From: Muribaculaceae bacterium
GTDB taxonomy: Bacteria > Bacteroidota > Bacteroidia > Bacteroidales > Muribaculaceae
Length of the DNA stretch: 64,000 nt
NCBI GenBank assembly: GCA_017405965.1
Contig: JAFQZK010000004.1
Span: 186,001-250,000, forward strand
Reading direction: 5' to 3'
Position numbers and translations under genes: made by a program. The notes beneath the pieces are model-generated. The model made no database searches. It was not told the origin of the DNA and saw only the letters and a program-made list of their open reading frames with translations. Positions within the stretch are counted from its first letter, which is position 1; the number at the start of each line of letters is the position of its first letter. Shown here piece by piece: positions 1,563 to 41,613 of this stretch.

Positions 1563-3341
1563 TTATTTGGTTTGTGATAGCTGCATGTTGATCAAGGCGG
1601 TCACATCAGTGATGTTGACAAGACTGTCCTTGTTGATGTCGGCGCAGGTCTCGCAGGTACCGTTCATGGAACCCAACAAGAAGCTGATAAGTACGGTGAC
1701 ATCGGTAACGTTGACAAGATTGTCATGGTTCACGTCGCCGCTGGTGTGCAGCTGTTTCATATACCAGAAACTGGCTGTGCCGTCGCGGTTGATGACCATC
1801 TCGGTCACGGGTTTGCCCAGGTAGCCCGCATTGCCGGTGATCTCGCCCCTGAAATCCATGTTGAGCTTGGTTGCCGGCGTTGATTCATCGCTCACCTCTC
1901 GCTTGTTGCCATATGGCCAGGTATCCCCGCTCTGGGTGTATTTGGACAACTTGTTATCGGCCGGAAGTATGGTAATCAGCTGAATCTTCTCGTTGTTGGG
2001 TTTATTGTTGGTCCACTGGCTCGCACTGTAGGTGATGTGAGTCACCAAGATGCCTTCACCGGGCAGAAAGCTGTCCCAACCATGGCGCTTGCGGTTCTCG
2101 AAGATGAAATACTCGTTCTTGTTCTCATCGCTCACGATACAAACGGCTTTATCGCTATCCTTTTGCTTTTGGTTCCATATAGGCAGGGTATAGTAGGTGT
2201 TGGGCTCGGGAGTGATATAATTCACCCATCCCATGAATACTTTCTCGTAGGCCGAATAACCTACCGGTGTGTAGCCGTCGTTGCAATAGCAACCCTGGCA
2301 CATGATGTCCCAGTCGCCCATGCCGAAATTGTCGTTATTGCCCGTGTCATACATGTCGGGCAAGCCCAGGCAGTGACCGAACTCGTGGGCAAACGTGCCG
2401 ATGCCGTCGATGGTCTTGCCGTTGTCGTTGGACCCGTGGAGCTCGTTGAACACAGCAAAATGGTTGACGTAGGGGTCGCCGATGCTGGGGCTGAAGGCGC
2501 CGTTGCCTCCCCTCGAGTAATATTTTGCGGCATCAAGTGTCCAGTTGCAGGGCCAGATGGCTTCGGGGTGGTAGGCCGCGGCTTGGGACTCGCCCACACC
2601 GGCAAAGATGATGATGACCACATCACAGTAGTAGTCGTTGTTGGTGTCATAGGGCTGGAACGACACGCTGTCGGCCGCTGCAAGCTGGCAAGCCTCGGTC
2701 ACCATCCAACCGATGCCCTTGTCCTTTGTCGTGCCCGAGTGGCCGCCGTAGTATTCGCGATTCTGCGACAGGCAGTAGATGCCATACACGTCAAATATGG
2801 GTTTATACATGCCGTTGGACTGGTCGTGGAAGTATTGTGCCACACCCTCCGAACCCGAAATCATGGCATTGATCACTTTCTCGCGGGTGTTGTTGAATTT
2901 CTTGTCCTGGAACTCGACCAGGATAACGGGGATGCGACGCTCGCCCATGGCGGGAACGCTGGCGGTGGCATTGCTGCCCGTGGCTGAGAGTTTGCCGCTC
3001 TTGTTGGGCAGCATGTATGAGTTGCGGGTCATTGTCAAGGTACCGCGTTGAACATTCACAAACGCTTTCTCGGCTGGTGTGCGTTCGCTGGCCTCATGGG
3101 CTCTGATGGAACTCAGGCCCGTCAGTCTCGAGGTGTAATAGAAGTCCCCGTCGCTGCCTCGGGCAACAGTCAGGCCGTCGCTGGTCACGATGGCATTGTT
3201 GAAGGCATTGCCCACGGCTTGTACTTTCAGTTTGGTGCCGTCGTGCTGTGTGACGGTATGCCAGCCGGGTTTGGCGGGTACAGCCATGGCGATGACCACA
3301 ACGCACAAGTAAATAGTCAAGAAACACAGTTTTCTTCTCAT
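1563..3341 (-). CDS. M6 family metalloprotease with C-terminal dockerin
   Basis: This is a secreted zinc endopeptidase of the immune-inhibitor-A-like M6 family, 592 residues. A signal peptide ends near residue 20 (AMA before VPAKPGWHT). The zinc site HEFGH lies at 319-323 with GLPD following (Asp329 as probable third ligand), and the Met-turn segment GMGDWDIM lies near 340-347. The C-terminus (about 534-592) is a two-repeat type I dockerin (GDVNHDNLVNVTDVT and ADINKDSLVNITDVT) whose linker carries a CxxC-like pair (CETC). The catalytic region is closely related to the next gene (3619-6462), so the two are tandem paralogs. This one lacks the extra domains between protease and dockerin. The substrate and dockerin partner are unknown. 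Confidence 0.9.
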   Translation of the reverse strand: MRRKLCFLTIYLCVVVIAMAVPAKPGWHTVTQHDGTKLKVQAVGNAFNNAIVTSDGLTVARGSDGDFYYTSRLTGLSSIRAHEASERTPAEKAFVNVQRGTLTMTRNSYMLPNKSGKLSATGSNATASVPAMGERRIPVILVEFQDKKFNNTREKVINAMISGSEGVAQYFHDQSNGMYKPIFDVYGIYCLSQNREYYGGHSGTTKDKGIGWMVTEACQLAAADSVSFQPYDTNNDYYCDVVIIIFAGVGESQAAAYHPEAIWPCNWTLDAAKYYSRGGNGAFSPSIGDPYVNHFAVFNELHGSNDNGKTIDGIGTFAHEFGHCLGLPDMYDTGNNDNFGMGDWDIMCQGCYCNDGYTPVGYSAYEKVFMGWVNYITPEPNTYYTLPIWNQKQKDSDKAVCIVSDENKNEYFIFENRKRHGWDSFLPGEGILVTHITYSASQWTNNKPNNEKIQLITILPADNKLSKYTQSGDTWPYGNKREVSDESTPATKLNMDFRGEITGNAGYLGKPVTEMVINRDGTASFWYMKQLHTSGDVNHDNLVNVTDVTVLISFLLGSMNGTCETCADINKDSLVNITDVTALINMQLSQTK

Positions 3342-3443
3342 TGGAAATGGTAGTTGAAGATGAATAATAAATGATATCAGTTATTGTAACACAATTGCCA
3401 CATAGCCTATGTGCAAGGGAATGTGACAATTACATTTACGGGC

Positions 3444-3452
3444 GCAAAATTA
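3444..3452 (-). promoter_or_regulatory. -7 box of M6 protease gene
   Basis: The minus strand reads TAATTTTGC (TAnnTTTG type), about 100 nt upstream of the start at 3341. No -33 element at standard spacing is clear. A CACATAGcCTATGTG palindrome lies between box and gene at 3400-3414 and could be an operator. Confidence 0.45.
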
Positions 3453-3552
3453 AGCATAATAATTCAAATAAGAAAATTATTTGGTATGATGGATTGATTT
3501 AAGTCGTTCGTTTGCTGTGATATTGCTACTTCATCATCGTTCCATTTTCCTG

Positions 3553-3595
3553 AAAAACAACGGGTTGCCCCATGAATTTACAGGGCAACCCGTTG
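3553..3595 (-). terminator. Terminator of second M6 protease gene
   Basis: On the minus strand CAACGGGTTGCCC (3595-3583) pairs perfectly with GGGCAACCCGTTG (3570-3558) over a 12-nt loop, followed by TTTTT. It lies 23 nt after the stop codon. Confidence 0.93.
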
Positions 3596-3618
3596 ACTGT
3601 TGATTTTACCGGTGGATA

Positions 3619-6462
3619 TTACTCGGTGCTGGTGAGCATCATGGTGATGAGCATGGTCACATCAGTCACGTTGATATTACCGTCGTTATTGATGTCTCCG
3701 CAGATTTGACAGCACTCGACATTGCCTCCAATCTGGTAGGTAATGAGGGTAGTCACATCGGTCACGTTGACCGTGCCGTCGTGGTTCACGTCGCCCAGCT
3801 GGTAGCTGTGGCCGTTCTCGAACAGGGTCACCTCCTCGATGTTGCTCCACGGGCTCTCGGTACCGTCCGAATAAACGGCTTTCACCTTGTAGTTGAATGT
3901 TCCGCTAGCCTCCAGGTCTTTCACGAGGTAGAACTTGTCGGTGATGTCGGTGATCAACCGGTAGGTGGTATCGCCGGTCTCTTGGGCATTGAGATTCATC
4001 GTGGTCAGGTCACCGGCATAGACGGTGACTTGCTTGATGCTCGAATAGTCGATCAATGACTGGATGGTCACGGCGTCGTTTGCGGCACAATCGAGGACGA
4101 TGACGTAATCGGTCATGTCCGGACCCAAGGCCACCTCCTGAGAAGCCATGCTGTTCGACACGCTGATGGTAGAGTTGTCGTAGTAATAGGACGCTGCCTT
4201 GATGACAACCGTCATCTTCTCATATCCGTTGAGGTTGTAGGTGGGGGATGAGATGGTGCCATCAAAGGCGAGAATCAGCGCGTTGCCGTAGGCGCCCAGA
4301 TAGGATGTGGCACTCCATCCGGCAGGCATGTAGTCGCTGTAGTTGCCCGAGATGTCAACGAGGCTATTGCCCTCAACAGCATCGGGTACGTTGCTGAAGT
4401 CGGCGGTCTCGAGCTGAACCACCAGAGGCTTGGTGTACACCTCGAGTGTGTAGCTGGCGACGTTGTCGTCGGGTGTCTGGTCGGTCCAGTCGGCACGGAA
4501 CTGCGTCAGATTGATCATCACACTGTCGGCAGGTTGCATCACGGGGGTATAGCCCTCGAGCAGGCCATGGCCAGCGAGGTTGACAATCACATCCTGGGCA
4601 CCGTCGCTCGAGAGAGTGAGCGTGGCTTGAAAATCCCTGTTGTCGTCAGGTGTGAAGGTCACGGTGACGTCAGTGCCGTTGGCGGCATCGGCATTGCTGA
4701 TGACAGTGGGGTTGATGCTGAACACGCCGTTGGCATCGTTGAGCCTGAGTGTGATGTCGCCTGTCAACGCTTGGCCGTAAACCCTCATCGTTATCGTGCC
4801 GCTTTGGGTCATCATCACATTGCCGAAGTTGAGGTCGTCGGTCGAAACCGAGATGACGGGATCCACCACAGCATCCTTCATGAACCAGAAGCTGGCCGTG
4901 CCGTTGTTGTTGATGACCATCTCGGTCACAGGCTTGCCCAGGTAGCCGGCATTACCCGTGATGCTGCCGTTGGCTCTCATGTACAGCTTGGCGGCAGGGG
5001 TGGAATTGTCGGTGAATTGGTTCTTGCCGTCGCGGGGCCACAGGTCGCTGTTTTCATTATAGTAGGACAGGGTGTTATCGACAGGTACGATGGTCATCAG
5101 TTGTATGTCTTGGTTGTTGACTGAGTTGCCCCACCATCGGTCAGGATTATAAGTGATGTGGGTGATCATGATACCCTGGCCGGGCAAGTAGCGGTCCCAA
5201 CCCTGGCGCTTGCGGTACTCCAGGACGAAGTATTCGTTCTCGTTCAGGTCACTGGTGATGCACACGGCCTTGTCGGTCGATTGCTGACTGAGGTTAAACA
5301 CGGGCAGGGTGTAATAGGTGCCGGGTTGCGCCTTGATATAGTCGATCCAGCCCATGAACACCTTCTCATAGGCCGTATAACCGGGCGGCGTGAATCCGTC
5401 GTTGTTGTAGCAGCCCATGCACATGACGTCCCAGTCGCCCATGCCGAAATGGTTGCCATTGCCGGTGTCGTAGAAGTCGGGAAGACCCAGGCAGTGGCCG
5501 AACTCGTGGGCAAAGGTGCCGATACCGTCTATCGTACTGCCGTCATCGTTGCTGCCGTACAGCTCGTTGAACACGGCAAAATTGTTGACGTAGGGGTCAC
5601 CGTTGTTGGGCCTGAAGGCGCCATTCCCGCCATAGTTGTAATAGGCGGCAGCGTCAAGGCTCCAGTTGCAGGGCCAGATAGATTCGGGATATGTCGTTGA
5701 GGCCTGTGATTCGCCTACGCCGGCATAGATGACGATGACCACGTCACAGAAGTCGTCGCTGTTGGTGTCATAGGGTTTGAACTGCACACCGTCGGCAGCA
5801 GCCAGCTGGCAAGCCTCGGTGACCATCGCTCCCAAGCCCTTGTCCGTCCCGTTGTAGTTGGCTCCGTAGTAAGAACGGTTCTGTGACAAGGTATAGATTC
5901 CATACACGTCAAATTCGGGCTCATACAGGCCGTTGGACTGGTCGCGGAAGTACTGTCCCACGCTCTCGTCGCCGGTGAGCAAGGCATCGATGATGCCTTG
6001 ACGGGTGTTACTGAATTTCTTGTCCTTGTACTCTACCAGAATGATGGGGATGCGGCGTGAGCCCATCGCGGGCACATCGGCATCGGCGTTGCTGCCGCCC
6101 ACACTCTTGAACGACCTTTTATTGCCGGGAATCTGATGTGATTTCTGCGGCATCGTCATGCTGCCACGCTGAGCATTCAGGAAAGCGGTCTCGGCGGGAG
6201 TGCGCTCGTTGACTTCGTGGGCACGCATCGTGGTCAGTCCTGTCAGCGACGAGGTGTAGTAGTAGTCTCCGTCGTCGCCACGGGCCACCGTCAGGCCGTC
6301 GCTGGTGAGAAAGGCGTGATTGAATGCGTTACCTACGGCTTGAACCTTCAAGGTGGTGCCGTCACTTTGTTTGATCGTGTGCCAGCCTGGCTTGGCGGGC
6401 ACAGCCATTACTGCAATGCTGCAACACAGCAGCATCAGTAAAAGAGCTAGATTTTTCTTCAT
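3619..6462 (-). CDS. Large M6 family metalloprotease with ASH-like and Fn3-like domains and dockerin
   Basis: This is a secreted zinc metalloprotease of 947 residues from the ATG at 6462, chosen because it opens a standard signal peptide (MKKNLALLLM, cleavage after residue 20) and lies just downstream of a -7 box. The protease domain spans about 21-590 with HEFGH at 319-323, the same positions as in the neighbour at 1563-3341. After it come a beta-sandwich of the ASH/choice-of-anchor kind (about 595-700, beginning VSTDDLNFGNV), a region with Fn3-like features (TLEVYTKP ... AVYSDGTESPWS), and a C-terminal dockerin (GDVNHDGTVNVTDVT and GDINNDGNINVTDVT) with Cys residues between the repeats. It looks like an extended paralog. 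It may act on extracellular host or dietary protein, which is inference. Confidence 0.9.
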   Translation of the reverse strand: MKKNLALLLMLLCCSIAVMAVPAKPGWHTIKQSDGTTLKVQAVGNAFNHAFLTSDGLTVARGDDGDYYYTSSLTGLTTMRAHEVNERTPAETAFLNAQRGSMTMPQKSHQIPGNKRSFKSVGGSNADADVPAMGSRRIPIILVEYKDKKFSNTRQGIIDALLTGDESVGQYFRDQSNGLYEPEFDVYGIYTLSQNRSYYGANYNGTDKGLGAMVTEACQLAAADGVQFKPYDTNSDDFCDVVIVIYAGVGESQASTTYPESIWPCNWSLDAAAYYNYGGNGAFRPNNGDPYVNNFAVFNELYGSNDDGSTIDGIGTFAHEFGHCLGLPDFYDTGNGNHFGMGDWDVMCMGCYNNDGFTPPGYTAYEKVFMGWIDYIKAQPGTYYTLPVFNLSQQSTDKAVCITSDLNENEYFVLEYRKRQGWDRYLPGQGIMITHITYNPDRWWGNSVNNQDIQLMTIVPVDNTLSYYNENSDLWPRDGKNQFTDNSTPAAKLYMRANGSITGNAGYLGKPVTEMVINNNGTASFWFMKDAVVDPVISVSTDDLNFGNVMMTQSGTITMRVYGQALTGDITLRLNDANGVFSINPTVISNADAANGTDVTVTFTPDDNRDFQATLTLSSDGAQDVIVNLAGHGLLEGYTPVMQPADSVMINLTQFRADWTDQTPDDNVASYTLEVYTKPLVVQLETADFSNVPDAVEGNSLVDISGNYSDYMPAGWSATSYLGAYGNALILAFDGTISSPTYNLNGYEKMTVVIKAASYYYDNSTISVSNSMASQEVALGPDMTDYVIVLDCAANDAVTIQSLIDYSSIKQVTVYAGDLTTMNLNAQETGDTTYRLITDITDKFYLVKDLEASGTFNYKVKAVYSDGTESPWSNIEEVTLFENGHSYQLGDVNHDGTVNVTDVTTLITYQIGGNVECCQICGDINNDGNINVTDVTMLITMMLTSTE

Positions 6463-6621: not shown

Positions 6622-8703
6622 TTAGCGGTTCTGGCGGCGCCTGTTTCTCGCGTCGTCATACTTGTTGCCGGTATAGGTGTTGGTGATGCCGGTCGAGAAT
6701 TCGTCTTCTTCCTCGTCTTCGTTGCCGGTCTTGTCTTGCTTCTTCTCGACCTTGTTCTTGGCCTGCTCGGGCTTGTTGCGCTTGATGTCTTCGGGTTTCT
6801 GCAGGTCGAGCGCGGTTTCATAGATGTTCCAGGTCTCGTCAAGGTCCCAGTTGCGGCGCAGTTTCAGCCGTTTGGGGTAATAATAGACCTCCTCGGGTTG
6901 CAAGTGGCTGTTGTAGTTGCCGGTGTCCCACTGGCCGTTGCCGTTGCTGTCGAGGGTGAGACGCAGGTAATAGGTGCCGGGCGTGACGTTGAGCAGTTCA
7001 AACGCGCCGTCCTTTACCTTGACGGTGCGCATCACCCTCTCGCCGCTGCCCAGCAGTTCGACAAAGGCGTCGCCCTTGGCATTGACCTTGAAATAGACGT
7101 TGGCATATTCCTCAGTGCCCTTGACTTTCATATCCTTGACGAGGGGGTTGTTGTGCAACCCGTAGACCGACGTCACGGCGGCGCTGTCGATGGTCAGCCG
7201 GTAGGTGGAGTCGGGCAGGGTGGTGAAGGGGAGCCAGTAGCGCATGGGATTCAGGTCGTCGACAGGGCGCAACGACGGCACGACAGGGTAGGGCACCCAC
7301 AAGGTGTCGCGCTTGATCTCGAGGTGTACGCCCCGCGGGTCGATGCTGGCGATGGGCGTGTCAAACCTGAGGATGATGGAGTCGCCGATGTCGAAGCTTC
7401 CGCTCTTGGCGAGTTCCATATTGAGTCTGGGAGTGTCGTTGGGATCGACATGTTGCAGTTCCTTGATTTCCTCAAGATCACCCTCGCCCAGTTCCTTGCC
7501 TTGGGCTGCGGCTTTCTCTTGTTTCTCGAGCAGTTGGGCGAGGCGCTTGGCGCGCTCCTCGCGCTCCTTGGCTTTCTTTTCCTCTTCCTTGACCTGAGAG
7601 CTGGGTTTGCGGTAGCCGAAGCGCACGGTGTCGGTCACCTGCTCCAGGCGCTCGGCGGTGTCGGTGCGCAGGTAGGTCATGGCCACAATCAGCGTGTCGG
7701 TCTTGATCAGGGCCGAGTCGGTGATCCAGTAGAACAGTGAGTCGTTGGTCATCGTGCGTTCCACACGGTACCAGTCGCGCTCATGCTCGGCAGGATGCAG
7801 CACCTCGAGCTGCGGCAACGAGTCGTTGGGCGCGCCGAAGAGGATGTGCAGCTTGTGGGCCTCGGGACGTGACGTTTGTCTGACGTAGTGGTTGCGGTAG
7901 CCCTCGTTGAACATGCACAGCAGCAGGTCGTTAGGCAGGTACAGGGTGTGAGTCGCCGTCATCACCGTGTCCACGCGACGGTCAAAGGTGAAGACGGTGT
8001 CCTGAGAGGTGTACTCGCTCGTCGTGGGGACGATGATCTCGTCGAGGAAAGCGATGTCCTCGGTTCGGGCCATGTGGTAGTCGCCGTCAACATCACTGAG
8101 GGCGAAGACATGGTAGCTGCCGGGTTTCAGGTTGCGGATGGTGAACTTGCCGAGGTCGTTGGTGCGGCTCACGCGCTCCAGCGGCACGCGGGTGAAAGCG
8201 GTGTCGTCGAGGTTGCTGTGCAGACCCACAATCACGTGCTGCATCGGTTCCAGGTCGTTGGCGCGCAGCACGATGCCCGACACGGCCAGCGTGTCAATCT
8301 CGTCACCGGTCGAGAAGGCGAACGAGTAGCCGTCAAGTTGGTTGCCCTCGTTGTTGTCCTCGATGGCATTCGAGAAGTCAATGACATAGGTCGTGTTCTC
8401 TTCCAGTTCGTCGCGGAACTCGATGGTCACTTTCTTGCCCACCGTGCGGATGAGAGGTTGTGTCTTGGGAGCTGGCGAGATGATGACTTTCTTCTGCTGG
8501 TCCTTGAGGTTGACGATTTCGTCAAAGGTGATTTCCACCTTTTGGCCCTTGAAATTGAGGGCATTGGCCTCGGGCGATGACTTGACCACCTGGGGCGGTG
8601 TGTAGTCACGCGGACCACCCTCGGGCGACCCGATGCTGGCACATGCCGCGAGTATCACACCCACGACCAGTGTCAACAGCCAATATGTCCAGCGTCCTTT
8701 CAC
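6622..8703 (-). CDS. Ig-like (Big_5) domain lipoprotein
   Basis: This is a 693-residue lipoprotein, probably on the outer membrane. The start is taken as GTG at 8703: it gives a compact signal peptide with lipobox LAAC (Cys21), and the more upstream in-frame TTG at 8724 lies inside the -7 box. The mature N-terminus ASIGSPEGGPRDYTPPQVV and the following 100 residues (SSPEANALNFKGQKVEITFDE) match the Big_5 Ig-like domain proteins common in Bacteroidetes. A Lys/Glu-rich, coiled-coil-like segment lies near residues 370-410. The C-terminus is an acidic stretch followed by Arg-rich RRRQNR. The function is unknown; a structural or envelope-assembly role is only a guess. Confidence 0.8.
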   Translation of the reverse strand: MKGRWTYWLLTLVVGVILAACASIGSPEGGPRDYTPPQVVKSSPEANALNFKGQKVEITFDEIVNLKDQQKKVIISPAPKTQPLIRTVGKKVTIEFRDELEENTTYVIDFSNAIEDNNEGNQLDGYSFAFSTGDEIDTLAVSGIVLRANDLEPMQHVIVGLHSNLDDTAFTRVPLERVSRTNDLGKFTIRNLKPGSYHVFALSDVDGDYHMARTEDIAFLDEIIVPTTSEYTSQDTVFTFDRRVDTVMTATHTLYLPNDLLLCMFNEGYRNHYVRQTSRPEAHKLHILFGAPNDSLPQLEVLHPAEHERDWYRVERTMTNDSLFYWITDSALIKTDTLIVAMTYLRTDTAERLEQVTDTVRFGYRKPSSQVKEEEKKAKEREERAKRLAQLLEKQEKAAAQGKELGEGDLEEIKELQHVDPNDTPRLNMELAKSGSFDIGDSIILRFDTPIASIDPRGVHLEIKRDTLWVPYPVVPSLRPVDDLNPMRYWLPFTTLPDSTYRLTIDSAAVTSVYGLHNNPLVKDMKVKGTEEYANVYFKVNAKGDAFVELLGSGERVMRTVKVKDGAFELLNVTPGTYYLRLTLDSNGNGQWDTGNYNSHLQPEEVYYYPKRLKLRRNWDLDETWNIYETALDLQKPEDIKRNKPEQAKNKVEKKQDKTGNEDEEEDEFSTGITNTYTGNKYDDARNRRRQNR

Positions 8704-9643: not shown

Positions 9644-10882
9644 TCAAGACTTTACTTTAGGGAGTTCGATGCAGAAGGTCGTACCCTTGCCCAATTCCGA
9701 TTCCTGGATGTATATCTGCCCCTTGTGATATTCCTCGATGATGCGCTTGACCAGCGTCAGGCCCAAGCCCCATCCGCGTTTTTTAGTGGTGAAGCCGGGG
9801 TTGAACACGTTCTTGAAGTTCTTGCGTGCGATGCCTTTACCCGTGTCCTTGACAAGAATCACGACGTTGTTGGGGCTGTCCTCAACGGTGATGTCGAGTC
9901 TTCCCTCACCGTCCATCGCATCGACGGCGTTCTTGGTCAGGTTTTCCATCACCCAGGCGAACAGCGTCTGGCTCAGCATCACGCCGTTGTTGGTCTGGTC
10001 GTTGGTGTGAATCTGCAGGTCCACGCGCTTGGGGATGCGGGCACGCATATATTCTAGGCTGGTCACCACGGCCTCGTTGATCGACGTGAGTTCCTTGTCG
10101 GGCATCGAGCCGATCTTGGAGAAGCGGTCGGCGATGGTGGACAGGCGCTTCACGTCCTTGTCCATGTCGGTGACGATGCTGTGGTCAACACCCATCGAGT
10201 CCAGCAGTTGCATCCAGGCCATGAGCGACGAGATGGGCGTTCCGAGCTGGTGCGCAGTCTCTTTCGACAGACCCACCCACACCTTGTTCTGCTCGGCGCG
10301 CTTGATGCTCATCAGGGCAAAGTAGGCGATGGCAAAGAACAGGATGAGGACTGCAAGCTGGATATAGGGGAAGTAGGACAATCGGCGCAACAGCGTCGAG
10401 TCCTCATAATAGAGGTGCTGCGTCGTGCTGTCGTCGATGATGATGTCGATCTTGTTCTCGCTGTTCTTCAGGTGGCGCAACTTCTTGTTGAGGTACTCCT
10501 GGTTGGCGGGCGACTCTTCAAGGGGGTTGTCGGTGGGCTCAGGCAGACGGAAGTTGCGGTGATCCAGGATATTGTCCTCGTCATCCACCAGCAGCACGGG
10601 GATGTTGTGGTTACCCTCGATGATGCTGAACAGGAAATCAACGTCGGCCATGCCCGACTCAATGGGGTTCCCGTCGGCATCAAATTCGGTGTTGTTGCCC
10701 ATCGTGGCCAGCTCACGCGTAGCGTCGGCCCAGATTTCCATGCGCTCTCGCTCCTGCTCGGCCAGGTCCTTGACCAGGTTGTTGGAGATGTAGAGGAACA
10801 GCGCCACAAGCATCAGCGAGATGGCGAGAAACACCACCTTCCAGATGCGTCGTGAGTCATATATGTTGCGCAGATTCGCCAT
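9644..10882 (-). CDS. Membrane sensor histidine kinase
   Basis: This is a 412-residue two-component sensor kinase. TM1 spans about residues 15-33 and TM2 about 172-192, enclosing a 140-residue periplasmic sensor region. The phosphoacceptor His211 sits in ETAHQLGTPISSL, the N box in MENLTKNAVDAM (about 312-323), the G1 box in DTGKGIA and the G2 box in GWGLGLTLVKRI. The HQLGTP form of the H box is typical of Bacteroidetes kinases of this type. No response regulator is adjacent, so the partner must be elsewhere. It is co-transcribed with the MBL hydrolase from a well-formed promoter at 10902-10934. Confidence 0.92.
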   Translation of the reverse strand: MANLRNIYDSRRIWKVVFLAISLMLVALFLYISNNLVKDLAEQERERMEIWADATRELATMGNNTEFDADGNPIESGMADVDFLFSIIEGNHNIPVLLVDDEDNILDHRNFRLPEPTDNPLEESPANQEYLNKKLRHLKNSENKIDIIIDDSTTQHLYYEDSTLLRRLSYFPYIQLAVLILFFAIAYFALMSIKRAEQNKVWVGLSKETAHQLGTPISSLMAWMQLLDSMGVDHSIVTDMDKDVKRLSTIADRFSKIGSMPDKELTSINEAVVTSLEYMRARIPKRVDLQIHTNDQTNNGVMLSQTLFAWVMENLTKNAVDAMDGEGRLDITVEDSPNNVVILVKDTGKGIARKNFKNVFNPGFTTKKRGWGLGLTLVKRIIEEYHKGQIYIQESELGKGTTFCIELPKVKS

Positions 10883-10901
10883 GTTAAGTCGTTAACAGTG
10901 G

Positions 10902-10934
10902 GCAAAATTAGGCAATTCCCCCGAATTGAACAAA
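10902..10934 (-). promoter_or_regulatory. Promoter of kinase-hydrolase operon
   Basis: On the minus strand TTTG (10934-10931) is followed by a 20-nt spacer and TAATTTTGC (10910-10902), a full match to the Bacteroidetes -33/-7 promoter, 20 nt upstream of the ATG. Confidence 0.75.
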
Positions 10935-11332
10935 TGATGCGCCGGCAACTTGCCAAATCTTAGCCCTTGGCAATTGTATCAAACAACTGATTTTTCTGAA
11001 TCATCTGATGCTTCCGCATTGATTTCAGATGGATGACAGACCCTGATCCTGCGAGCAATGCGAGTATCCTGATAAAGAACGCGGATGCCAATTAAAACGA
11101 TTTTCTTTGATTTATTGCGAGCCTTTGCGAGCAATCCCAATCTCTTAGCGTCTTAGCGCCTTTGCGTGGGGCCCTTCGCGCGTAAGCCTAAAAAAGAGTT
11201 GTACCAGTTGTTCGATAAAATATTTTTTTTAATTTCTTGCGAGCTCAAGCGAGCAATCCCAATAATCTTAGCGCCTTCGCTCCTTCGCGTGGGGGTGGGG
11301 CCCACGTGCGCATGCCATTGTATTTGTTGTAT
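10935..11332. repeat. Intergenic repeat mosaic
   Basis: No gene is seen. The stretch carries two rounds of the dispersed modules GCGAGC...GCGAGCAATCCCAAT (from about 11117 and 11238) and CTTAGCGCCTT(C/T)GCGTGGGG (11142-11171 and 11267-11296), a GAATCATCTGA word near 10998, and the beginning of the module with core ATTTATTGTTTTCCTTTT (11312-11349), which continues into the HAD gene. Confidence 0.7.
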
Positions 11333-12193
11333 TTATTGTTTTCCTTTTAGCAGGTCTTTTTCGATCCAGTGAGCGACACTGTCCTCGGTATTGGGGCCGA
11401 TGACCTCGCTGGCAGCCGCTTTGACCTCGTCAAAGGCGTTCCCTACGGCCACGCTGTGGTCGGCAGCCTGCATCATGGCGATGTCGTTGCGGTTGTCGCC
11501 GAACACGACCACCCTGTCGGCGCCCACCTGTCTGGCCAGTTCGCGGATGGCGCCCGCCTTGCTGGTCCCGGCGGTGAAAATCTCGAGATAGCCTTCGCTC
11601 TCGTTAAAGATGTCATGATACAACATCACCGAGCACGTGGACACTGTGGCCTTGAGGTCGGCGGCAATGGCATCGAGTACGGTAAACTTGTTCATGGTGA
11701 AAATCAGCAGGGCCTCGTCGTCGCTGTGACGGTAATTCTTGTCATCAAGGAAGAACTTCTTCAGGGGCAGATGTTGCCGTGCAGCGATAAATCGCTCTTC
11801 CTGCTGCGACATGGCTCCGTAGTGGTGGGTGTGAAGCAGCCGGTCGCCATGGCGACGGTAGATGAAAGGGTGACTGTCGTAGCGGTCGAACACGTCGGCC
11901 ACGGCATTCACCGTCGTGTCGTCGATGCCGCGCGTGTGCTCATAGTTGGCAGTAACGGGATTCCACATCGCAGCACCGCCGATGACGATAAAAGGCAGGG
12001 TGGCATGCACCTCTTGCATCAGCGGCACGACCGTGGCGGGGGTGCGGGCCGTGGCAATGCTGAACAGGCCGCCCAATTCACCGATGACGCGGTTGAGTGT
12101 GGCAATGGTGCCTGCCGACAACTGTGAGTTGTCGTCAAGCAACGTGCCGTCAAGGTCGCTCACGTAGAGCGTCTTTGTTTCTCCTGTTTTCAA
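11333..12193 (-). CDS. HAD superfamily hydrolase, Cof type
   Basis: This is a 286-residue haloacid-dehalogenase-type phosphatase of the Cof/YbiV subgroup, acting on sugar phosphates or similar metabolites in the cytoplasm. Motif I is DLDGTLLD (nucleophile Asp13, acid/base Asp15) and motif IV is VFGDNRNDIAMM near residue 235, with the C2 cap between. The last residues (KGKQ and stop) are encoded inside a dispersed repeat module that also occurs at 18286-18322 and 35991-36029, so the 3' end may have been rewritten by a repeat. It lies 55 bp after panB, the gap filled by a TCTAACCTTTAACCT-type repeat. The substrate is not assignable. Confidence 0.88.
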   Translation of the reverse strand: MKTGETKTLYVSDLDGTLLDDNSQLSAGTIATLNRVIGELGGLFSIATARTPATVVPLMQEVHATLPFIVIGGAAMWNPVTANYEHTRGIDDTTVNAVADVFDRYDSHPFIYRRHGDRLLHTHHYGAMSQQEERFIAARQHLPLKKFFLDDKNYRHSDDEALLIFTMNKFTVLDAIAADLKATVSTCSVMLYHDIFNESEGYLEIFTAGTSKAGAIRELARQVGADRVVVFGDNRNDIAMMQAADHSVAVGNAFDEVKAAASEVIGPNTEDSVAHWIEKDLLKGKQ

Positions 12194-18182: not shown

Positions 18183-18480
18183 CAGTGGAGAAGTGGAAAG
18201 GAAGAGAAGTGGAAAGGAAGAGAAGGTGTATGGGGTGAGTGTCGAACGAGTAGAGACGCAAAATTTTGCGTCTCCTGAATGCGGATGCCATAGTATTTAT
18301 TGTATTTATTGTTTTCCTTTTTTCTTAGCGTCTTGGCGTCTTAGCGTGAGACTTGTGTGCGGATGCTCAATGAAAAGTTGTTCAAGTTGTTCAGCGTTGT
18401 ATTAGTTGTTTGATGAAAGGGATGCGGCTGCCAGGAGTGAGGTATCAAATTTCCTTAATATTGTCCTAAAATGCGTTAAG
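18183..18480. repeat. Intergenic repeat mosaic
   Basis: No gene is seen. It holds a GTGGAAAGGAAGAGAA tandem pair (about 18191-18224), one copy of the GACGCAAAATTTTGCGTC palindrome (18253-18274), the module with core ATTTATTGTTTTCCTTTT (18286-18322), a CTTAGCGTCTTGGCG module (18323-18350) and GTTGTTCAAGTTGTTCAG (from about 18377). Confidence 0.7.
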
Positions 18481-26598: not shown

Positions 26599-26626
26599 GT
26601 AGAGACGCAAAATTTTGCGTCTCTAC
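26599..26626. repeat. GACGCAAAATTTTGCGTC palindrome, copy
   Basis: This is a perfect 28-bp palindrome (GTAGAGACGC at each end). The same core occurs at 18253-18274, 35811-35835 and 35868-35892. Confidence 0.9.
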
Positions 26627-32139: not shown

Positions 32140-34206
32140 TCACCCTACTTGGCAACCGGGCTTGACGGGTCCGGTCGGGCCGATGACCACGAGGCGGCCG
32201 CCGGCGTCCTCGGCGCTCAGGATCATGCCCTGGCTCTCGATGCCCTTGAGTTTGCGCGGCGGGAAGTTGGCGATGAAGCACACCTGCTTGCCCACGAGCT
32301 CCTCGGGCTCATACCACTTGGCGATGCCGCTGATGATGGTGCGTCCTGCCATGCCGTCGTCGATGGTGAATTTCAGCAGCTTGTCGGCCTTCTTCACCTT
32401 CTCGCACTCGACAACGGTACCTACGCGGATATCCAGCTTGGCAAAGTCGTCGATGGTGCATGACGTGGTGACGGGCTTGGGCTTGAAGTTGTTGATGATG
32501 TTCTCCTGCTTGATGCGTTCCAGACGGTCGATTTGCGCTTGGATGACAGGATCCTCGATCTTCTCGAACAGCAGCACGGGCTGTTCCAGCTGGCGTCCGG
32601 CGGGCAGGATGTCGATGTCGCCCAGGCGGCTCCACTCGGCCCTCTCCATACCGATCATGCTGCGCAGTCTAGCGGAGCTGAAGGGCAGGAACGGCTCGAA
32701 GGCGATCGACAGGTTGGCGGTGATCTGCAGGGCCAGGTTCATGATGGTCTGCACACGTGCCATGTCGGTCTTGGCAAGCTTCCAGGGCTCGGTATCGGCC
32801 AGATACTTGTTGCCGCAGCGGGCCAGATCCATAGCGTCCTTCAACGCCTCGCGGAAGTGGAAGTGCTCGATGTGGTCGCTCAACACGGCCTTCACGTTCT
32901 TGAATTCCTCGATGGCGGCACGGTCGATGTCGGTGAGTTCGCCGGCCTCGGGAACGATGCCCTCACAGAACTTGTGAGTCAGCACCAGGGCGCGGTTCAC
33001 GAAGTTGCCCAGGATGGCCACCAGCTCGTTGTTGTTGCGGGCCTGGAAGTCCTTCCAGGTGAAGTCATTGTCCTTGGTCTCGGGCGCATTGGCGGTGAGC
33101 ACATAGCGCAGCACGTCCTGCTTGCCGGGGAAGTCCTGCAGATACTCGTGCAACCATACGGCCCAGTTGCGGCTCGTCGAGATCTTGTCACCCTCGAGGT
33201 TCAGGAACTCGTTGGCGGGCACATTGTCGGGCATGACGTAATCGCCGTGGGCCTTCATCATCGTCGGGAAGATGATGCAGTGGAACACGATATTGTCCTT
33301 GCCGATGAAGTGGATCAGGCGCGTGTCCTCACGCTGCCACCACTGCTGCCAGCTGCCCCAGCGCTCAGGCTGGGCGTCGCACAACTCCTTGGTGTTGCTG
33401 ATGTAGCCGATGGGCGCGTCAAACCACACGTACAGCACCTTGCCGTCAGCGCCCTCGACGGGAACGGGGATGCCCCAATCCAGGTCGCGGGTCATCGCGC
33501 GGGGCTGCAGCCCGTTGTCGAGCCACGACTTGCACTGGCCATACACGTTGCTGCGCCATTCCTGATGGCCCTCGAGGATCCACTCCTTGAGCCAGCCCTC
33601 ATACTCGTTCAGGGGCAGGAACCAGTTGGTGGTGTCCTTCAGGATAAGCGGATGGTCGCTGTCCTTGGCGTGCGGATTGATCAGTTCGGTCGGATCCAGG
33701 TCGCGGCCGCAGCCGTCCTCACACTGGTTGCCCTTGGCTGCCGGATGGTGGCAGTAGGGGCACTCGCCCTCGACGTCGCGGTCGGTAAGGAACTTGCCGT
33801 CCTGCTCGTCATAGAACTGCTTGGTCACCTTCTCGATGAGTTTGCCCTCGTCGTAGAGTTTGCGGAAAAACTCGGCGGCAAACTGGTGATGAATCTTGCT
33901 GGTCGTGCGGCTGTAGATGTCGTAGGAGATGCCGAACTCGTCAAATGAATCCCTGATGAGGGTGTGGTAGCGGTCCACAACCTGCTGCGGGGTAATGCCC
34001 TCCTTGCGGGCGCGTTGGGTCACGGGTACGCCATGCTCATCGCTGCCGCCCACGAACAGCACGTTCTCGCCCTGCAGGCGCAGGTAGCGCACGTAGATGT
34101 CGGCGGGCACATATACGCCAGCCAGGTGGCCGATGTGTACAGGTCCGTTAGCATAGGGCAGCGCCGTCGTCACCAGCGTGCGAGCAAATTTCTTCTCTTT
34201 CTCCAT
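32140..34206 (-). CDS. metG: Methionine-tRNA ligase
   Basis: This class I aminoacyl-tRNA synthetase charges tRNA-Met. The 688-residue product has the HIGH-type motif [14 protein letters not shown], a knuckle zinc ribbon ([19 protein letters not shown]), the KMSKS equivalent KISTS ([13 protein letters not shown]), the helical anticodon-binding domain and a C-terminal EMAP/Trbp111-type tRNA-binding OB fold (about 585-688, [17 protein letters not shown]). The length is normal for the dimeric form. Its 3' end is closely followed by the tandem hairpin repeats at 31905-32138. The promoter lies at 34248-34277. Confidence 0.97.
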
Positions 34207-34247
34207 TTTTTATCCTTGTTTTTACTGTTTGTTTGCCATTTGAAAGG

Positions 34248-34277
34248 GCAAAGGTACTAAAAAGTTTCCACTTTCAA
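34248..34277 (-). promoter_or_regulatory. Promoter of metG
   Basis: On the minus strand TTG (34277-34275), an 18-nt spacer and TACCTTTGC (34256-34248), about 42 nt upstream of the ATG. Confidence 0.6.
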
Positions 34278-34385
34278 GTCTTTGCTCCTCAGTTTCTGAT
34301 TTTTGATGCCCCATCAGCACAATCAAAACCGCCATACACCATCTCAAATTACTGGTTTCCAGCCCAGAAATTCCCCCTCCTTAAC

Positions 34386-34420
34386 TTTTATAGAAATTCT
34401 ATAATAGAAATCCTATAAAA
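34386..34420. repeat. 35-bp direct repeat, copy downstream of ATPase gene
   Basis: It is identical over 35 bp to 35651-35685 in the same orientation. It consists of two adjacent 13-bp units, ATAGAAATTCTAT (a perfect palindrome around its central base) and ATAGAAATCCTAT, flanked by TTTT and AAAA. The copy lies 9 bp past the ATPase stop codon. Confidence 0.93.
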
Positions 34421-34429
34421 TTTGTTTTA

Positions 34430-35596
34430 TCAGCCCTTAAGTTGTTGAAGGAGGTTGGCTGATCCGTATAACCTATTAATCCATAGGGCAAAGAACGGGT
34501 CGTTGATGGAATACTTTCCGGCAAGTTTTGTGATGATTCCCTTGGTGAGAAGTTGTGCCGCTGCATATTGGACTGCACTGGCCGAGGCCAATTTATGGTC
34601 CTTGACAAACTTGGCCGAAGTGATGCGTTCTGCCTCTCCTTCCTGGGCGATAGCATAAAGCAGTGGCTTGTGTTTATCGGGAATATTGGACAATTGCTCA
34701 CGCAACATGGGTTCTTTAGAGTTAATGACGTTGTTGATTGCGGTGATGACCATGTCAATCGTGACGTCGGAGCCCTCACGGGTGATGGAATACAGTTCAT
34801 TGAAGGTCTTCTGCATGGCATAAGTGTTACCGCTGTAGAGCCGATAGACCTCCTTCACCAGTTCCTCGCTGATGGTTCGCTTGCCTCGATTCATGTGATC
34901 AATCACAAACCGTGCATACACATCAATGTCAATGGCTTTCAATTCCAGGGTGTCGGCGCTATTGTAAAAAGGCCTGGCCGAGGACATGAACATCTTCTGC
35001 ATGATGTGGTACTCGCTACCGGCAAAGATGAAATGCGTGTTGGATGCCTGTTGTACGTGGGTGCGGAGCAGGGCCTCGATATTCTTTTCGGGATAATTGG
35101 CAATCTGTTGAAATTCATCAAAGGCGACGATACAGGGTTTGTCAGCATTTTCCAGATAGGTGAATATCTCTTCGAGAGTCATTGCTGGGCGTGTGATGTC
35201 GCCCAACTCCAGGTTAAAAGTGGGCATATTGGTGACCAAATCGATACTGAATTTGCCACTGAGAGATTTGAGCGTATGCACAAACGAGGTCAACATCTTC
35301 TGCCCAAACGGCAGGATAGCTTCAAAGATGCTTTTACCGAACAGGAACGTGAATTCCCTCAGGCTGGTGGTGTGCAGGATGTCAATGAAGATGGTGTGAT
35401 AATTGTTAAAGATAGGCTCCTTGTCATAGCAGTAATTTATCAGTCCTGTCTTGCCCATGCGTCGAGGAGATATCAACACCAGATTATTACCGTTGGTCAG
35501 CGACTTGATGAGGCTTGCACTCTCGCTGACACGGTCACAGAAGTACTCTGGCTCTATCTTGCCCGATACGATAAATGGATTGATGATCTTTTTCAT
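34430..35596 (-). CDS. AAA family ATPase (archaeal-type ATPase_2 domain)
   Basis: This is a 388-residue P-loop ATPase of the ATPase_2/STAND-like group widespread in Bacteroidetes. The N-terminus NPFIVSGKIEPEYFCDR is typical. Walker A is SPRRMGKTGLI (about 43-53) and Walker B is CIVAFDEFQQI. A sensor region FIFAGSEYHIMQKMF and a C-terminal winged-helix part (SASAVQYAAAQLLTKGIITK, DPFFALWI) follow. No known partner effector is encoded beside it. The gene is more AT-rich than its neighbours and is enclosed by perfect 35-bp direct repeats at 34386-34420 and 35651-35685, which suggests transfer as a unit. Its biological role is unknown; stress, defence or mobile-element maintenance are possibilities only. 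Confidence 0.88.
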   Translation of the reverse strand: MKKIINPFIVSGKIEPEYFCDRVSESASLIKSLTNGNNLVLISPRRMGKTGLINYCYDKEPIFNNYHTIFIDILHTTSLREFTFLFGKSIFEAILPFGQKMLTSFVHTLKSLSGKFSIDLVTNMPTFNLELGDITRPAMTLEEIFTYLENADKPCIVAFDEFQQIANYPEKNIEALLRTHVQQASNTHFIFAGSEYHIMQKMFMSSARPFYNSADTLELKAIDIDVYARFVIDHMNRGKRTISEELVKEVYRLYSGNTYAMQKTFNELYSITREGSDVTIDMVITAINNVINSKEPMLREQLSNIPDKHKPLLYAIAQEGEAERITSAKFVKDHKLASASAVQYAAAQLLTKGIITKLAGKYSINDPFFALWINRLYGSANLLQQLKG

Positions 35597-35627
35597 AATC
35601 TATCGCCTTTTAGTAATCAATGACGCT

Positions 35628-35636
35628 GCAAAGATA
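35628..35636 (-). promoter_or_regulatory. -7 box of ATPase gene
   Basis: The minus strand reads TATCTTTGC, 32 nt upstream of the ATG. The position where a -33 element would lie is occupied by the edge of the 35-bp repeat (35651-35685), so that repeat could act as an operator. Confidence 0.55.
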
Positions 35637-35650
35637 ATCATTATTTTTGA

Positions 35651-35685
35651 TTTTATAGAAATTCTATAATAGAAATCCTATAAAA
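35651..35685. repeat. 35-bp direct repeat, copy upstream of ATPase gene
   Basis: Perfect copy of 34386-34420, located 55 bp upstream of the ATPase start codon and overlapping the expected -33 region. Confidence 0.93.
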
Positions 35686-36089
35686 ATCTATTGATGTCAG
35701 CTAAAAGCCAAAGAAATAGTGCTTTTCCCCGATTTTTCCTGCTTATGTAGGGCCTCGCCTTGGCGTGGCCGCCATGCGTCAATTATCATCAAAATACGGC
35801 CTAAATCTATGTAGAGACGCAAAATTTTGCGTCTCAAGGGTAGGCTCCTTGTAACGCATTGTTGAGGGAGACGCAAAATTTTGCGTCTCTACAGGAATAT
35901 TTCAATTGAGAAAAAAACCGAATCATCTGAGAACTCTGACATTCAGAATATTCAGATGATTCAGTTGTTGTTAAAATACTCGTTCCAAGCCGGATGGCTA
36001 GTATTTTTTGTATTTATTGTTTTCCTTTTTCGCTACGATCAGTCTAGCAAAAAACTTGTTTTCCCTTTATCAAGGGTTGTCGTGGAGGA
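35686..36089. repeat. Intergenic repeat mosaic
   Basis: No gene is seen. In order: a GTAGGGCCTCGCCTTGGCG copy (35747-35772), two copies of the GACGCAAAATTTTGCGTC palindrome (35811-35835 and 35868-35892), an 11-bp inverted repeat GAATCATCTGA (35920-35930 with 35952-35962) and the module with core ATTTATTGTTTTCCTTTT (35991-36029). Confidence 0.75.
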
Positions 36090-37469
36090 TTACTTCACGA
36101 GGATCTTCTTGCCGTTGTGGATGTAGATGCCGCTAGCGGGAGCCTTGGTGGGAACGCCCAAGAGGTTGTAGTACAGGCCATCGTTCTGCTCAGCAGCATT
36201 GATCTCCTCAACAGCAGTGTCTTCCTGATAAGGAGGCATGAAGATAACCAGACCCTTGCTGGGGTCGTCAGCCTGGTGGTAGATCACCTCCTCGATGTTC
36301 TCCTCGGTCTGCTCGGCCACGTTCCAGGTGTTGCCCTGGGCCCAGATGGTGGCAGTGCCGTTGTTGAACAGGTCATAGAGCACGCCATTGTTGCCGTTGT
36401 TCACAAAGGTGTTGTTGCCGGGGTTGTAGTCCTCGGCCTCGGGATCCTCGACCTTACCCAGGTTGATGTTGGGTGCGCCGGTGGGCACGGTGATGCCCCA
36501 CAGGCCACCTTCCATCCAGTTACCCTCCATGTAGATGTTGCTGCTACTGCTGCTGTCATAGATGCTGACGCAGCTGCCGCCGTTGTTGGGGTTGGTCTCG
36601 TAGCAGTTGTCAATCATCACGTTGTTGCGGATGATGGCGTCAACGCTGCCGATGGTGGTGATGCCATAGCGGTTGTCAGCAATGTAGTTGTTCTCGATGA
36701 TGTTGATGCCGCTGTGAGCCAGGCCCATCATGTTGCTCAGACCGATGCCGCCCGAGAGGGTGAACTGACCGCCAATCACGTCATTGTCGGCGATGATCAC
36801 GTCGTAGGGGCCACCCACCGTCAAGTTGATCTGGGGCTTGTTGCGGTTGTCGGTGGTGTTGTGCCAGAAGAGGCAGTTGCGGATGATGATGCCCACGGGG
36901 TTGGTGGCACCGTTACCGATGGCGTTGAGGGTGTTCTCGATGAAGTAGCAGTTCTCAACGATGTTGTTGTCGCACGAAGCGTTGAACGACAGGGCACCCG
37001 AGCTGGAGCTCTTGCCGTTGTGCAGCGTGAAGGTGCAGTTGTCGGCTGTCAGGCTGCTGTTCAGGCCACCGAAGACAACGCCCACATATTCAAAGGTGAC
37101 GTTCTTGAGAGTGGCGTTGCCGTTCTCGCCCAACATCCAGAAGCCCTTGGGCTTGCTGTTCTCGTTGTCACGGGTAACGACGGCGGTATCGGCGGGGGCG
37201 AAGTCAGCGTCGCCGTCAAGGGTGATCCTCACACCGTCGGCCATCTTGATGATGTCGTTGTTCTGCAGTTGCAGCACGTCGCCCTCGGCGATGGTGAAGT
37301 CGGCGCTCACCAGATAGGAACCATCGTCCTGCAGGGTCACGCCGGTGCCCTCGATCTGGCTCAGGGCATTAAAGGTGTACACGTTGCCGGTGCCGTCACT
37401 GACGAAACCTTGGGCCATTGCTCCGGCTGCCATGGCGGCCAGAACCAAGAATGCGTAGATTTTCTTCAT
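36090..37469 (-). CDS. Secreted right-handed beta-helix protein with sorting-like tail
   Basis: This is a 459-residue exported protein (signal peptide ending AGAMAQ near residue 20). The middle (about 110-330) shows the short repeating strands of a parallel beta-helix (NATLKNVTFEYVG, SLTADNCTFTLHN, NNIVENCYFIENT, VGIIIRNCLFWHN, AIIRNNVMIDNCY). This fold is found in polysaccharide lyases and related glycan-active proteins; no catalytic motif can be named. The end, LYYNLLGVPTKAPASGIYIHNGKKILVK in outline (YYNLLG ... GIYIHNGKKILV), resembles the tails on Bacteroidales type 9-secreted or surface proteins. A -7 box TATCTTTGC lies upstream at 37511-37519 (minus). Single gene; function unknown. Confidence 0.8.
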   Translation of the reverse strand: MKKIYAFLVLAAMAAGAMAQGFVSDGTGNVYTFNALSQIEGTGVTLQDDGSYLVSADFTIAEGDVLQLQNNDIIKMADGVRITLDGDADFAPADTAVVTRDNENSKPKGFWMLGENGNATLKNVTFEYVGVVFGGLNSSLTADNCTFTLHNGKSSSSGALSFNASCDNNIVENCYFIENTLNAIGNGATNPVGIIIRNCLFWHNTTDNRNKPQINLTVGGPYDVIIADNDVIGGQFTLSGGIGLSNMMGLAHSGINIIENNYIADNRYGITTIGSVDAIIRNNVMIDNCYETNPNNGGSCVSIYDSSSSSNIYMEGNWMEGGLWGITVPTGAPNINLGKVEDPEAEDYNPGNNTFVNNGNNGVLYDLFNNGTATIWAQGNTWNVAEQTEENIEEVIYHQADDPSKGLVIFMPPYQEDTAVEEINAAEQNDGLYYNLLGVPTKAPASGIYIHNGKKILVK

Positions 37470-40197: not shown

Positions 40198-41535
40198 TCA
40201 CTGGTGGAGCAGGTTGTCGATGAGCATCACCGCGTCGGTGATGTTGATGCTGCCGTCACCGTTGAAATCGGCCTTGGTGAGATTAAGCTGTGACGCATCG
40301 TTGTTTAACAGGTAATTGATGACGAGGGTGGCGTCGATGATGTTGAGGACTTTGTCGTCGTTGACATCGCCTGTGAGCCCTACCAGATCGGGGTCGGGTA
40401 CAAAATTGATGACCATGTCTTGATAAGAGTTGAATTGCAGGCCTCGCACTTCCAGCAAGGCGATGTCAAAGTAGCCGTCGTAGTTGCCGTACCATCCCCA
40501 ATTGACGTGAACCAGTCCCTCCTCGTTATAGCCGTCGATAACGAATGAGTGACCGGCGGCCATCAGACCCACCGAAGGATCGAATTTCAAATAGACGCCC
40601 TGATAATACAAGGGGCGACGATGGCTCAACTCGTTATAGACCATATCCATCCATTCGGGTTCGCTGTAGTCGCTGCGCACGACCGTGGCGGCATCCTTGC
40701 TGTAGCCGAAGTAGTTCTGGGCACCAGCCACGCCGGCTTGGTTGCTTGACCCTGACTCGTTGGTGGCGTAGGTCATCCAGCTGACCAGTCCGCAGACATA
40801 GGACAACAACGCTACGGCACGTCCTTGAGCCTCGGTGTACTGGCCCTCGGGGTAGCTGTCCAGCATATTGTCCCAGTCAAAGGTCGCATCAAAGCTGGTG
40901 CTGGCTTCTTTGTCGCCGATCAGGAAATTGGCCGTACCAGCGGCATGGTCGGGAAAGCGGTAATAGCGGACGATTTGAGCCAGGGCTGTGGCAACGCAGC
41001 CCACACAGCAATGCACCACATCGGGCGTGTAGTCGTCACAAATCTCGCCATAGCCGGTCGGGCACCAGTAGCTGTAGGGCGCGTCCTGTCCCCATTGCGA
41101 TGTGATCAGGGCATCAACTTTGGCGGGATACTTGGCGGGGTCGGGCAGGGTGGTCGTGAAGCCGATGTCTCGGCCGGTGACGATGCGTGACACTTCCTCG
41201 ATGCTCTGGCAGAACCACTCAAAGCCCGGATTGGCCTGACCTGCACTCGATGCTCGGCCATTGCCCACAGCCAGTACAGCCGGCAGGCGGTCGTCGGCTG
41301 CTATCATGGCAAAGTCGCCTTGACGGGTTTGATAGAGGCTGTAGGCACTGGTGACACGGGCCTCGGTCAAGGGCGAGGAGGCATTGAAGCGATGACCGCC
41401 TGCGGTCATTGTCGTCAAGGCTTGCCGGGCCGTTTGCAACATGGCTTGCTTATCACGCGGTGCACTCCATGCAGGTGTGCTCAACAAGAACATAGCCAAC
41501 AAGAACGCGATGGGTTGTGAAATTTTTTTTAACAT
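40198..41535 (-). CDS. C10 family cysteine protease (streptopain-like) with dockerin
   Basis: This is a secreted papain-like protease of 445 residues from ATG 41535, chosen because it opens a signal peptide (MLKKISQPIAFLLAMFLL, cleavage near AWS-A). A SpeB-type propeptide spans about 25-140. Catalytic Cys180 lies in VGCVATALAQIVRYYRFP and His329 in AAGHSFVIDGY, followed by VNWGWYGNYDGYF. The C-terminus (about 385-445) is a two-repeat dockerin (GDVNDDKVLNIIDATLVINYLL and ADFNGDGSINITDAVMLI). Related C10 enzymes such as interpain, periodontain and the Bfp proteases degrade host proteins. A nearby inhibitor (spi-like) is not seen. It is a single gene with promoter 41580-41613. Confidence 0.92.
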   Translation of the reverse strand: MLKKISQPIAFLLAMFLLSTPAWSAPRDKQAMLQTARQALTTMTAGGHRFNASSPLTEARVTSAYSLYQTRQGDFAMIAADDRLPAVLAVGNGRASSAGQANPGFEWFCQSIEEVSRIVTGRDIGFTTTLPDPAKYPAKVDALITSQWGQDAPYSYWCPTGYGEICDDYTPDVVHCCVGCVATALAQIVRYYRFPDHAAGTANFLIGDKEASTSFDATFDWDNMLDSYPEGQYTEAQGRAVALLSYVCGLVSWMTYATNESGSSNQAGVAGAQNYFGYSKDAATVVRSDYSEPEWMDMVYNELSHRRPLYYQGVYLKFDPSVGLMAAGHSFVIDGYNEEGLVHVNWGWYGNYDGYFDIALLEVRGLQFNSYQDMVINFVPDPDLVGLTGDVNDDKVLNIIDATLVINYLLNNDASQLNLTKADFNGDGSINITDAVMLIDNLLHQ

Positions 41536-41579
41536 ACTTGGAAGTTTGGATGGTGTTAATATTGAATAAGTTAGCGTTG

Positions 41580-41613
41580 GCAAAGTTAATGATTTCTATA
41601 GTGGATTTCCAAA
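41580..41613 (-). promoter_or_regulatory. Promoter of C10 protease gene
   Basis: On the minus strand TTTG (41613-41610), a 21-nt spacer and TAACTTTGC (41588-41580), about 45 nt upstream of the ATG. Confidence 0.65.

Follow-up and report, generated by a model that had tools for sequence, protein, structure and literature searches.

A gene for an AAA ATPase lies between two direct copies of a 35-bp repeat, which we call REP, in 64,000 nucleotides of contig JAFQZK010000004.1 (positions 186,001 to 250,000; hereafter, the window) from Muribaculaceae bacterium GCA_017405965.1 (genome G000; 3.6 Mb in 40 contigs, 96% complete). We think it likely that this arrangement is a chromosomal one-gene mobile cassette, bounded by its own operator-like REP and gained or lost by recombination at that repeat. 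Sequence comparison among relatives shows that the site can be filled or empty, that the gene inserts in either direction and is scattered across the species tree, and that some arrays hold a second cargo.

An earlier note on this DNA had described identical, same-orientation 35-bp repeats around a single ATPase gene, and both were found (TTTTATAGAAATTCTATAATAGAAATCCTATAAAA). One REP follows the ATPase stop codon by 9 bp, as described; the distance from the start codon to the other measured 54 bp instead of 55 bp. The two 13-bp palindromic units reported for each repeat are near-palindromic (12/13 positions self-complementary in unit 1, centre excepted, and 10/13 in unit 2; 30/35 for the whole 35-mer), and the single-strand folding of REP (z = −2.7) was as expected for a palindrome. 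With up to two mismatches, the 13-bp unit had eight matches in the window, all within the two REPs (0.46 expected by chance; maximum of 4 in 100 shuffles). Across the assembly, the 35-mer (up to three mismatches) occurred only as the two window REPs and the unit ATAGRAWTYCTAT was confined to them, the backwards-read control pattern being found once per strand. The gene is also more AT-rich than its neighbors, as the note had observed (47.1% GC, versus 60.9% for metG, 57.5% for the gene on the other side, and 54.5% for the window). A terminator scan over 34200 to 36100 returned none, giving no terminator function for REP.

The genomes that we compared are gut and rumen Bacteroidales. The two-unit motif (up to three mismatches) was found in 19 of 397 family genomes, all in the window's genus, and the reversed-pattern control in none. 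Eight of the 19 carry the motif on both sides of the ATPase gene, 10 lack the ATPase, and in G247 the motif is confined to the promoter of a homolog of 65% identity. REP flanking, a point that the note had asked to be checked, held for every homolog of at least 75% identity (8/8, the window's included; seven with two units on both sides and G237 with one unit on the 3′ side). In the 10 ATPase-less genomes (completeness, 81 to 98%), neither an ATPase in the fetched stretch nor a homolog of at least 75% identity genome-wide was detected. The repeat is thus widespread without the gene in the literal sense that the note had counted against a cassette (10 of 19 motif genomes); however, eight of these 10 copies lie upstream of metG, as an empty site predicts, and those of G304 and G310 lie elsewhere.

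At the site upstream of metG, 6 of 45 genomes were filled (REP-ATPase-REP), 11 held a solo REP, and 28 had no two-unit REP. This sample comprised the window and 44 genomes drawn from 95 with a metG match: those nearest by metG identity (at least 93% or near-complete fragments), seven at 80 to 84%, and G264, whose stretch was taken from its motif match. G272 was unscorable, since its contig ends ∼90 bp upstream of metG. Empty single-repeat sites in sister genomes, which the note had asked for, were present. In the clearest pair, the sisters G316 (filled) and G381 (empty; support of 100/100), the flanks including REP aligned at 159/173 positions on the left and 174/198 on the right, and adding the ATPase and one REP to the empty site yields the filled one. 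The second pair, G207 and G256, belongs to one well-supported group of four and aligned at 124/151 on the left but on the right only with 91 gap columns. Solo REPs lie about 166 to 684 bp from metG (3063 bp in G402), several directly after a terminator-like hairpin (by eye). In 10 of the 11 solo genomes, G402 being left out, solo REPs were 93% identical pairwise in the better orientation and 90% in site orientation, whereas the adjoining 35-bp flanks reached 36% and 26% (ungapped).

The ATPase gene faces either way and is found at other loci. At the metG site, it runs with metG in G000, G237, G207, and G260 and against it in G316 and G351. The gene lies ∼38 kb from metG in G187 and on another contig in G272, beside methyltransferase-like and nuclease-like genes (by eye), and in the sisters G304 and G310 a solo REP occupies a BlaI-like locus (by eye), with a further partial REP elsewhere in G304. 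Second cargo was also observed. The order in G237 is REP, an EcoRI-type methylase and GmrSD/HNH nuclease, REP, ATPase, one-unit REP, and metG; part of the 3′ region of the upstream gene recurs with each REP, and it looks as if the cassettes had integrated by homology. A similar gene pair (by eye) stands between one REP and metG in G402, where a second REP was not found.

A second ATPase clade, from another genus, behaves alike. Here, a different 33-bp motif is present in 9 of 26 genomes, with its site beside fusA (label by eye). It brackets the ATPase in five (G414, G415, G416, G417, and G436), three of which also have a bracketed RhuM gene (G416, G417, and G436). In G438, RhuM alone lies between repeats, without the ATPase (matches to PF13310, Fic, and PADLOC PDC-S23); G428 and G437 have a single repeat between RhuM and fusA, and G426 has one next to a RhuM-like gene at another locus. 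On both sides of the cassette, G415 aligned with G437 (131/146 and 208/261, the latter with 110 gap columns, as the stretches differ in length). The idea of a one-gene mobile cassette was borne out insofar as the gene is present or absent as a unit, in either direction, at other loci, and in a second clade alike; it did not hold that the two repeats are equivalent (see below). At L223, the second-clade ATPase cassette is flanked by a ParA-like and SIR2-like (ThsA-related) pair (9768 to 11646) and, opposite it, by a HepT-like gene (7391 to 7909).

Features of the ATPase cassette and its host genes in the window
Feature	Position	Strand	Remarks
metG, methionyl-tRNA synthetase	32140..34206	-	One of the two host genes that flank the site
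REP, boundary copy	34386..34420	+	3′ side of the ATPase; 13-bp units 34390-34402 and 34404-34416
ATPase gene	34430..35596	-	388 aa; SSO1545/PABY2304-type AAA ATPase (PF01637); predicted C-terminal winged helix
TATCTTTGC	35628..35636	-	Between REP and ATPase start codon; kept in close homologs
REP, operator-like copy	35651..35685	+	Promoter side of the ATPase; 13-bp units 35655-35667 and 35669-35681
459-aa protein	36090..37469	-	"Beta-helix" by eye, without Pfam match; host gene on the other side

The short element TATCTTTGC resembles the Bacteroidetes −7 promoter consensus. REP can be ruled out as an ordinary dispersed repeat by its two copies in the window's assembly, in contrast to GAGACGCAAAATTTTGCGTCTC, a perfect 22-bp palindrome. 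This dispersed repeat, also found in relatives, has four exact copies in the window (18253-18274, 26602-26623, 35814-35835, and 35868-35889), the last two paired beside the ATPase cassette. Farther along, the window encodes a C10 peptidase with an Inhibitor_I69 domain and a dockerin (40198-41583).

Promoter-side repeats extend well beyond these clades. The gene was located in 113 of 114 homolog loci, most of which show palindromic or tandem short AT-rich units upstream of the start that are clade specific (by eye). As a group, 84 ATPase upstream regions were richer in dyads (P = 1 × 10−7) and direct repeats (P = 9 × 10−6) than 158 regions upstream of other genes in the same loci, although few stood out individually (z > 2 in 13% for dyads and 11% for direct repeats, versus 4% and 9% of controls). 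Since upstream units are family-wide, the promoter-side REP is a family feature. The comparison indicates that the repeats differ in role, one being an operator-like family feature and the other a boundary copy. A second copy downstream of the gene was found at 13 of 104 loci (8 in the window's clade, 4 in the fusA clade, and L083, with a longer repeat; 9 loci that duplicate genomes under another identifier were excluded), ruling out bracketing as a rule for the whole family. A flanking direct repeat exceeded all 60 shuffles at 18 of the 104 loci; the remaining ones (L105, L085, L131, L101, and L104) hold other intergenic repeats or are weak, and at L101 the repeat takes in part of that locus's motif (7 mismatches in 33), just ahead of the following gene. 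At L083, the ATPase, of a further clade, lies between ∼220-bp direct repeats (about 2773-2990 and 4189-4412, by eye) that include the upstream intergenic sequence, iterons, and promoter. At L107, a second copy of the promoter motif (2 mismatches in 33) lies ∼1 kb upstream of the ATPase, before another gene.

One alternative invokes vertical descent and repeated loss: the locus would be old, its second operator copy accidental, and deletion between the direct repeats would recur, each time leaving one repeat, with nothing mobile. Deletion is expected for direct repeats of 35 bp that lie 1.2 kb apart, and G232, the sister of the window's genome and one of the 28 genomes lacking a two-unit REP at the metG site, has one degenerate unit and no close ATPase. 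We nevertheless consider repeated loss unlikely. On a metG plus gyrB tree (41 rows, 37 of them ingroup; G264 absent; support below 80 for 13 of 38 inner branches), presence of the ATPase clade required at least 7 changes for 8 carriers among the 37 ingroup genomes, and REP presence, with degenerate and other-site copies counted, required at least 11 for 21 genomes. ATPase synonymous divergence (dS) was at least 1.04 in 28/28 pairs, compared to 0.33 to 0.88 for gyrB and 0.36 to 0.90 for metG, a comparison weakened by saturation (17 pairs) and by the codon bias of gyrB and metG. The neighbor gene gave a dS of 0.39 to 0.58 in the four filled genomes with that gene at the site. Because ATPase synonymous divergence lies above that of the host genes, the data suggest that the ATPases were acquired by separate insertions. 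Repeated loss likewise sits poorly with the two ATPase directions at the metG site, the ATPases at other loci, the solo REPs that are conserved where their flanks do not align, and the RhuM cassette of G438 that lies between repeats without an ATPase.

A third clade served as a control, in which the motif of an unbracketed paralog was searched in 101 genomes. It was found in 11, beside the ATPase in 7 and without one in the fetched stretch in 4. Three of these four solo motifs (G272, G280, and G242) follow an aldo/keto reductase-like gene (by eye), the same gene that adjoins the third-clade ATPase in G301, G409, G187, G325, and G328; the G272 contig ends ∼75 bp past the motif, however, and an ATPase farther out is possible. 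These solo motifs indicate that a motif can occur without the ATPase even where there is no bracketing, and a single motif left where the ATPase is absent is what repeated loss predicts.

Several further points weigh against a mobile cassette. Neither the cassette nor its 8 neighbor genes (26.9 to 41.6 kb) encode a recombinase or transposase that we could find, so nothing in the element accounts for movement. A lone empty site is accounted for equally well by deletion between the direct repeats and by gain of the cassette. Third-clade filled sites have no second motif copy, and the motif without ATPase in that clade is explained by simple loss, not by target-site duplication alone. The G272 contig end and the poor alignment of G000 with G232 weaken two comparisons; in the latter, the flanks align so poorly that the window's genome has no clean empty site in its sister. 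Relative to the ATPase, REP is turned around in G000 and G237 compared with the other six, and the solo REPs of the sisters G212 and G410 face opposite ways with respect to metG. Most of the genome sample consists of draft metagenome assemblies. Bracketing, as noted above, is no family rule. Lastly, motif similarity appears to track the whole protein and not the winged helix: with 102 proteins reduced to 88, its partial correlation was 0.128 with the C-terminal part and 0.185 with the N-terminal part (permutation P = 0.001 for both).

In the mobile cassette that we favor, the unit would consist of the ATPase gene, a short promoter, and one REP; when present, it would lie between two direct REPs, and when absent, it would leave one. 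REP would be the operator of the ATPase, with binding suggested by the modelled winged helix and the clade-specific promoter repeats. Selection on the binding site would keep 33 to 35 bp constant, and this constant stretch would offer incoming and outgoing cassettes a place to cross over, most plausibly by passive recombination. A circle of the ATPase and one REP would probably integrate into a resident REP via host recombination, and in some arrays the repeats also bound restriction-modification or RhuM cargo.

Movement could instead depend on a dedicated site-specific system at REP, with excision and integration carried out by the ATPase or by a host recombinase that it guides. This, too, seems to us unlikely: the ATPase gave no match to a nuclease or recombinase family, the G438 RhuM cassette has no ATPase, and the second clade's 33-mer lacks the near-symmetry of REP (6/33 positions). 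A stronger version makes the ATPase itself the mover, an initiator-like protein that would bind its own iterons, assemble on REP, drive excision and integration or the replication of a minimal one-gene circle, and mobilize other genes between REP copies. Its fold neighbors allow an active role of the ATPase in movement, but fold likeness alone shows no function, and we regard the ATPase as mover as improbable.

It also seems improbable to us that REP is only the operator of the ATPase, with second and solo copies serving as operators of other genes in an ATPase-controlled regulon. Family-wide promoter motifs and the modelled winged helix are consistent with such a regulon, as is, by analogy, mycobacterial IniR, a transcriptional regulator of which an SSO1545-like ATPase domain forms part (PMC5760070). 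Against it, solo REPs occur in genomes without a detected homolog of at least 75% identity, their distance to metG varies as given above, several stand right behind a terminator-like hairpin, and the window's assembly has no further REP copies. An insertion sequence or transposon was rejected, since the filling gene is an ATPase and the ends are direct, not inverted, repeats (an overlapping 356-aa antisense open reading frame was left unsearched).

The window ATPase matched PF01637 (ATPase_2) at 40.2 bits against a gathering score of 33.2, and its predicted fold includes a C-terminal winged helix (structure model). Including distant paralogs, 89 of 101 genomes of the genus have a family match. 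The ratio of nonsynonymous to synonymous divergence (dN/dS) was 0.03 to 0.09 in the 11 pairs with a finite value, indicating purifying selection on the protein. Among plasmid records, 22 of 72,556 had a match, and among phage records 2 of 50,697, in every case below 60% identity; IMG/VR had one matching locus (61% identity). Exact matches of the REP or second-clade motif pattern were absent from viral contigs. With the motifs lacking exact viral matches and the protein rare on plasmids and phages, a phage or plasmid origin was rejected. As a regulator of SSO1545/STAND type, the ATPase probably senses stress or phage and serves as accessory or defense cargo; no role for its relatives was described in the literature that we found. 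PADLOC PDC-S23 (RhuM), PDC-S27, and PDC-S01 gave strong matches among cargo or neighbors, and the window ATPase itself was marginal (E = 0.0013 each for PDC-S01 and PDC-S27). The PDC-S labels denote single-gene defense candidates.

Two other ATPase genes were seen at the metG site. In G242 (L174), a PDC-S27-type gene (3272-4717) lies among copies of a 53-bp hairpin repeat (3202-3254, with exact copies of 53 and 46 bp at 4870-4922 and 5032-5077); this gene was rejected as a REP cassette, as the flanking copies are the dispersed hairpin and not REP. In G333 (L161, 445-1743), an AAA_14/DUF4143 (PDC-S01) ATPase gene is flanked by the same pair of host genes, with neither REP nor a flanking direct repeat of at least 9 bp. 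The metG spot therefore takes several ATPase families.

Cassettes of this kind may explain how individual candidate defense genes, although they bring no recombinase, come to be exchanged at set positions in the chromosome. A private promoter repeat for each ATPase, together with repeats that lack the gene, offers a marker for cassette gain and loss and, for each protein, a defined binding-site hypothesis. If the ATPase were the mover, many Bacteroidales ATPase clades, each with its private repeat, would be separate, mutually noninterfering mobile systems.

In the open-license literature searched, outside of which most subscription papers fall, a repeat-bounded ATPase cassette was not described, in agreement with the note, which knew of no such layout; nor did that literature describe a repeat-bounded cassette or an empty site for the SSO1545/PABY2304 family (PF01637). 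The Orc1/Cdc6 initiators (2qby and 2v1u) may resemble the window ATPase, as modelled, in combining an AAA ATPase with a winged helix, and have repeats beside the gene; sequence identity is 12%. Integron gene cassettes are one-gene units that integrate at a site, of which a single copy remains in their absence, and they form arrays. REP cassettes share these three properties but carry their own promoter, and no integrase gene was found among the 8 neighbor genes at 26.9 to 41.6 kb. In the Xer-dependent dif modules of Acinetobacter (PMC6449649), small accessory-gene cassettes have short conserved sites at their ends and are transferred from one context to another; each dif site spans 28 bp, a 6-bp center lying between two 11-bp arms, and modules lie between inverted repeats. 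REP fails the definition of dif, being two 13-bp palindromic units in direct orientation and the promoter motif of its cargo. By analogy, Xer dif modules are nevertheless the nearest counterpart of the REP cassette in organization.
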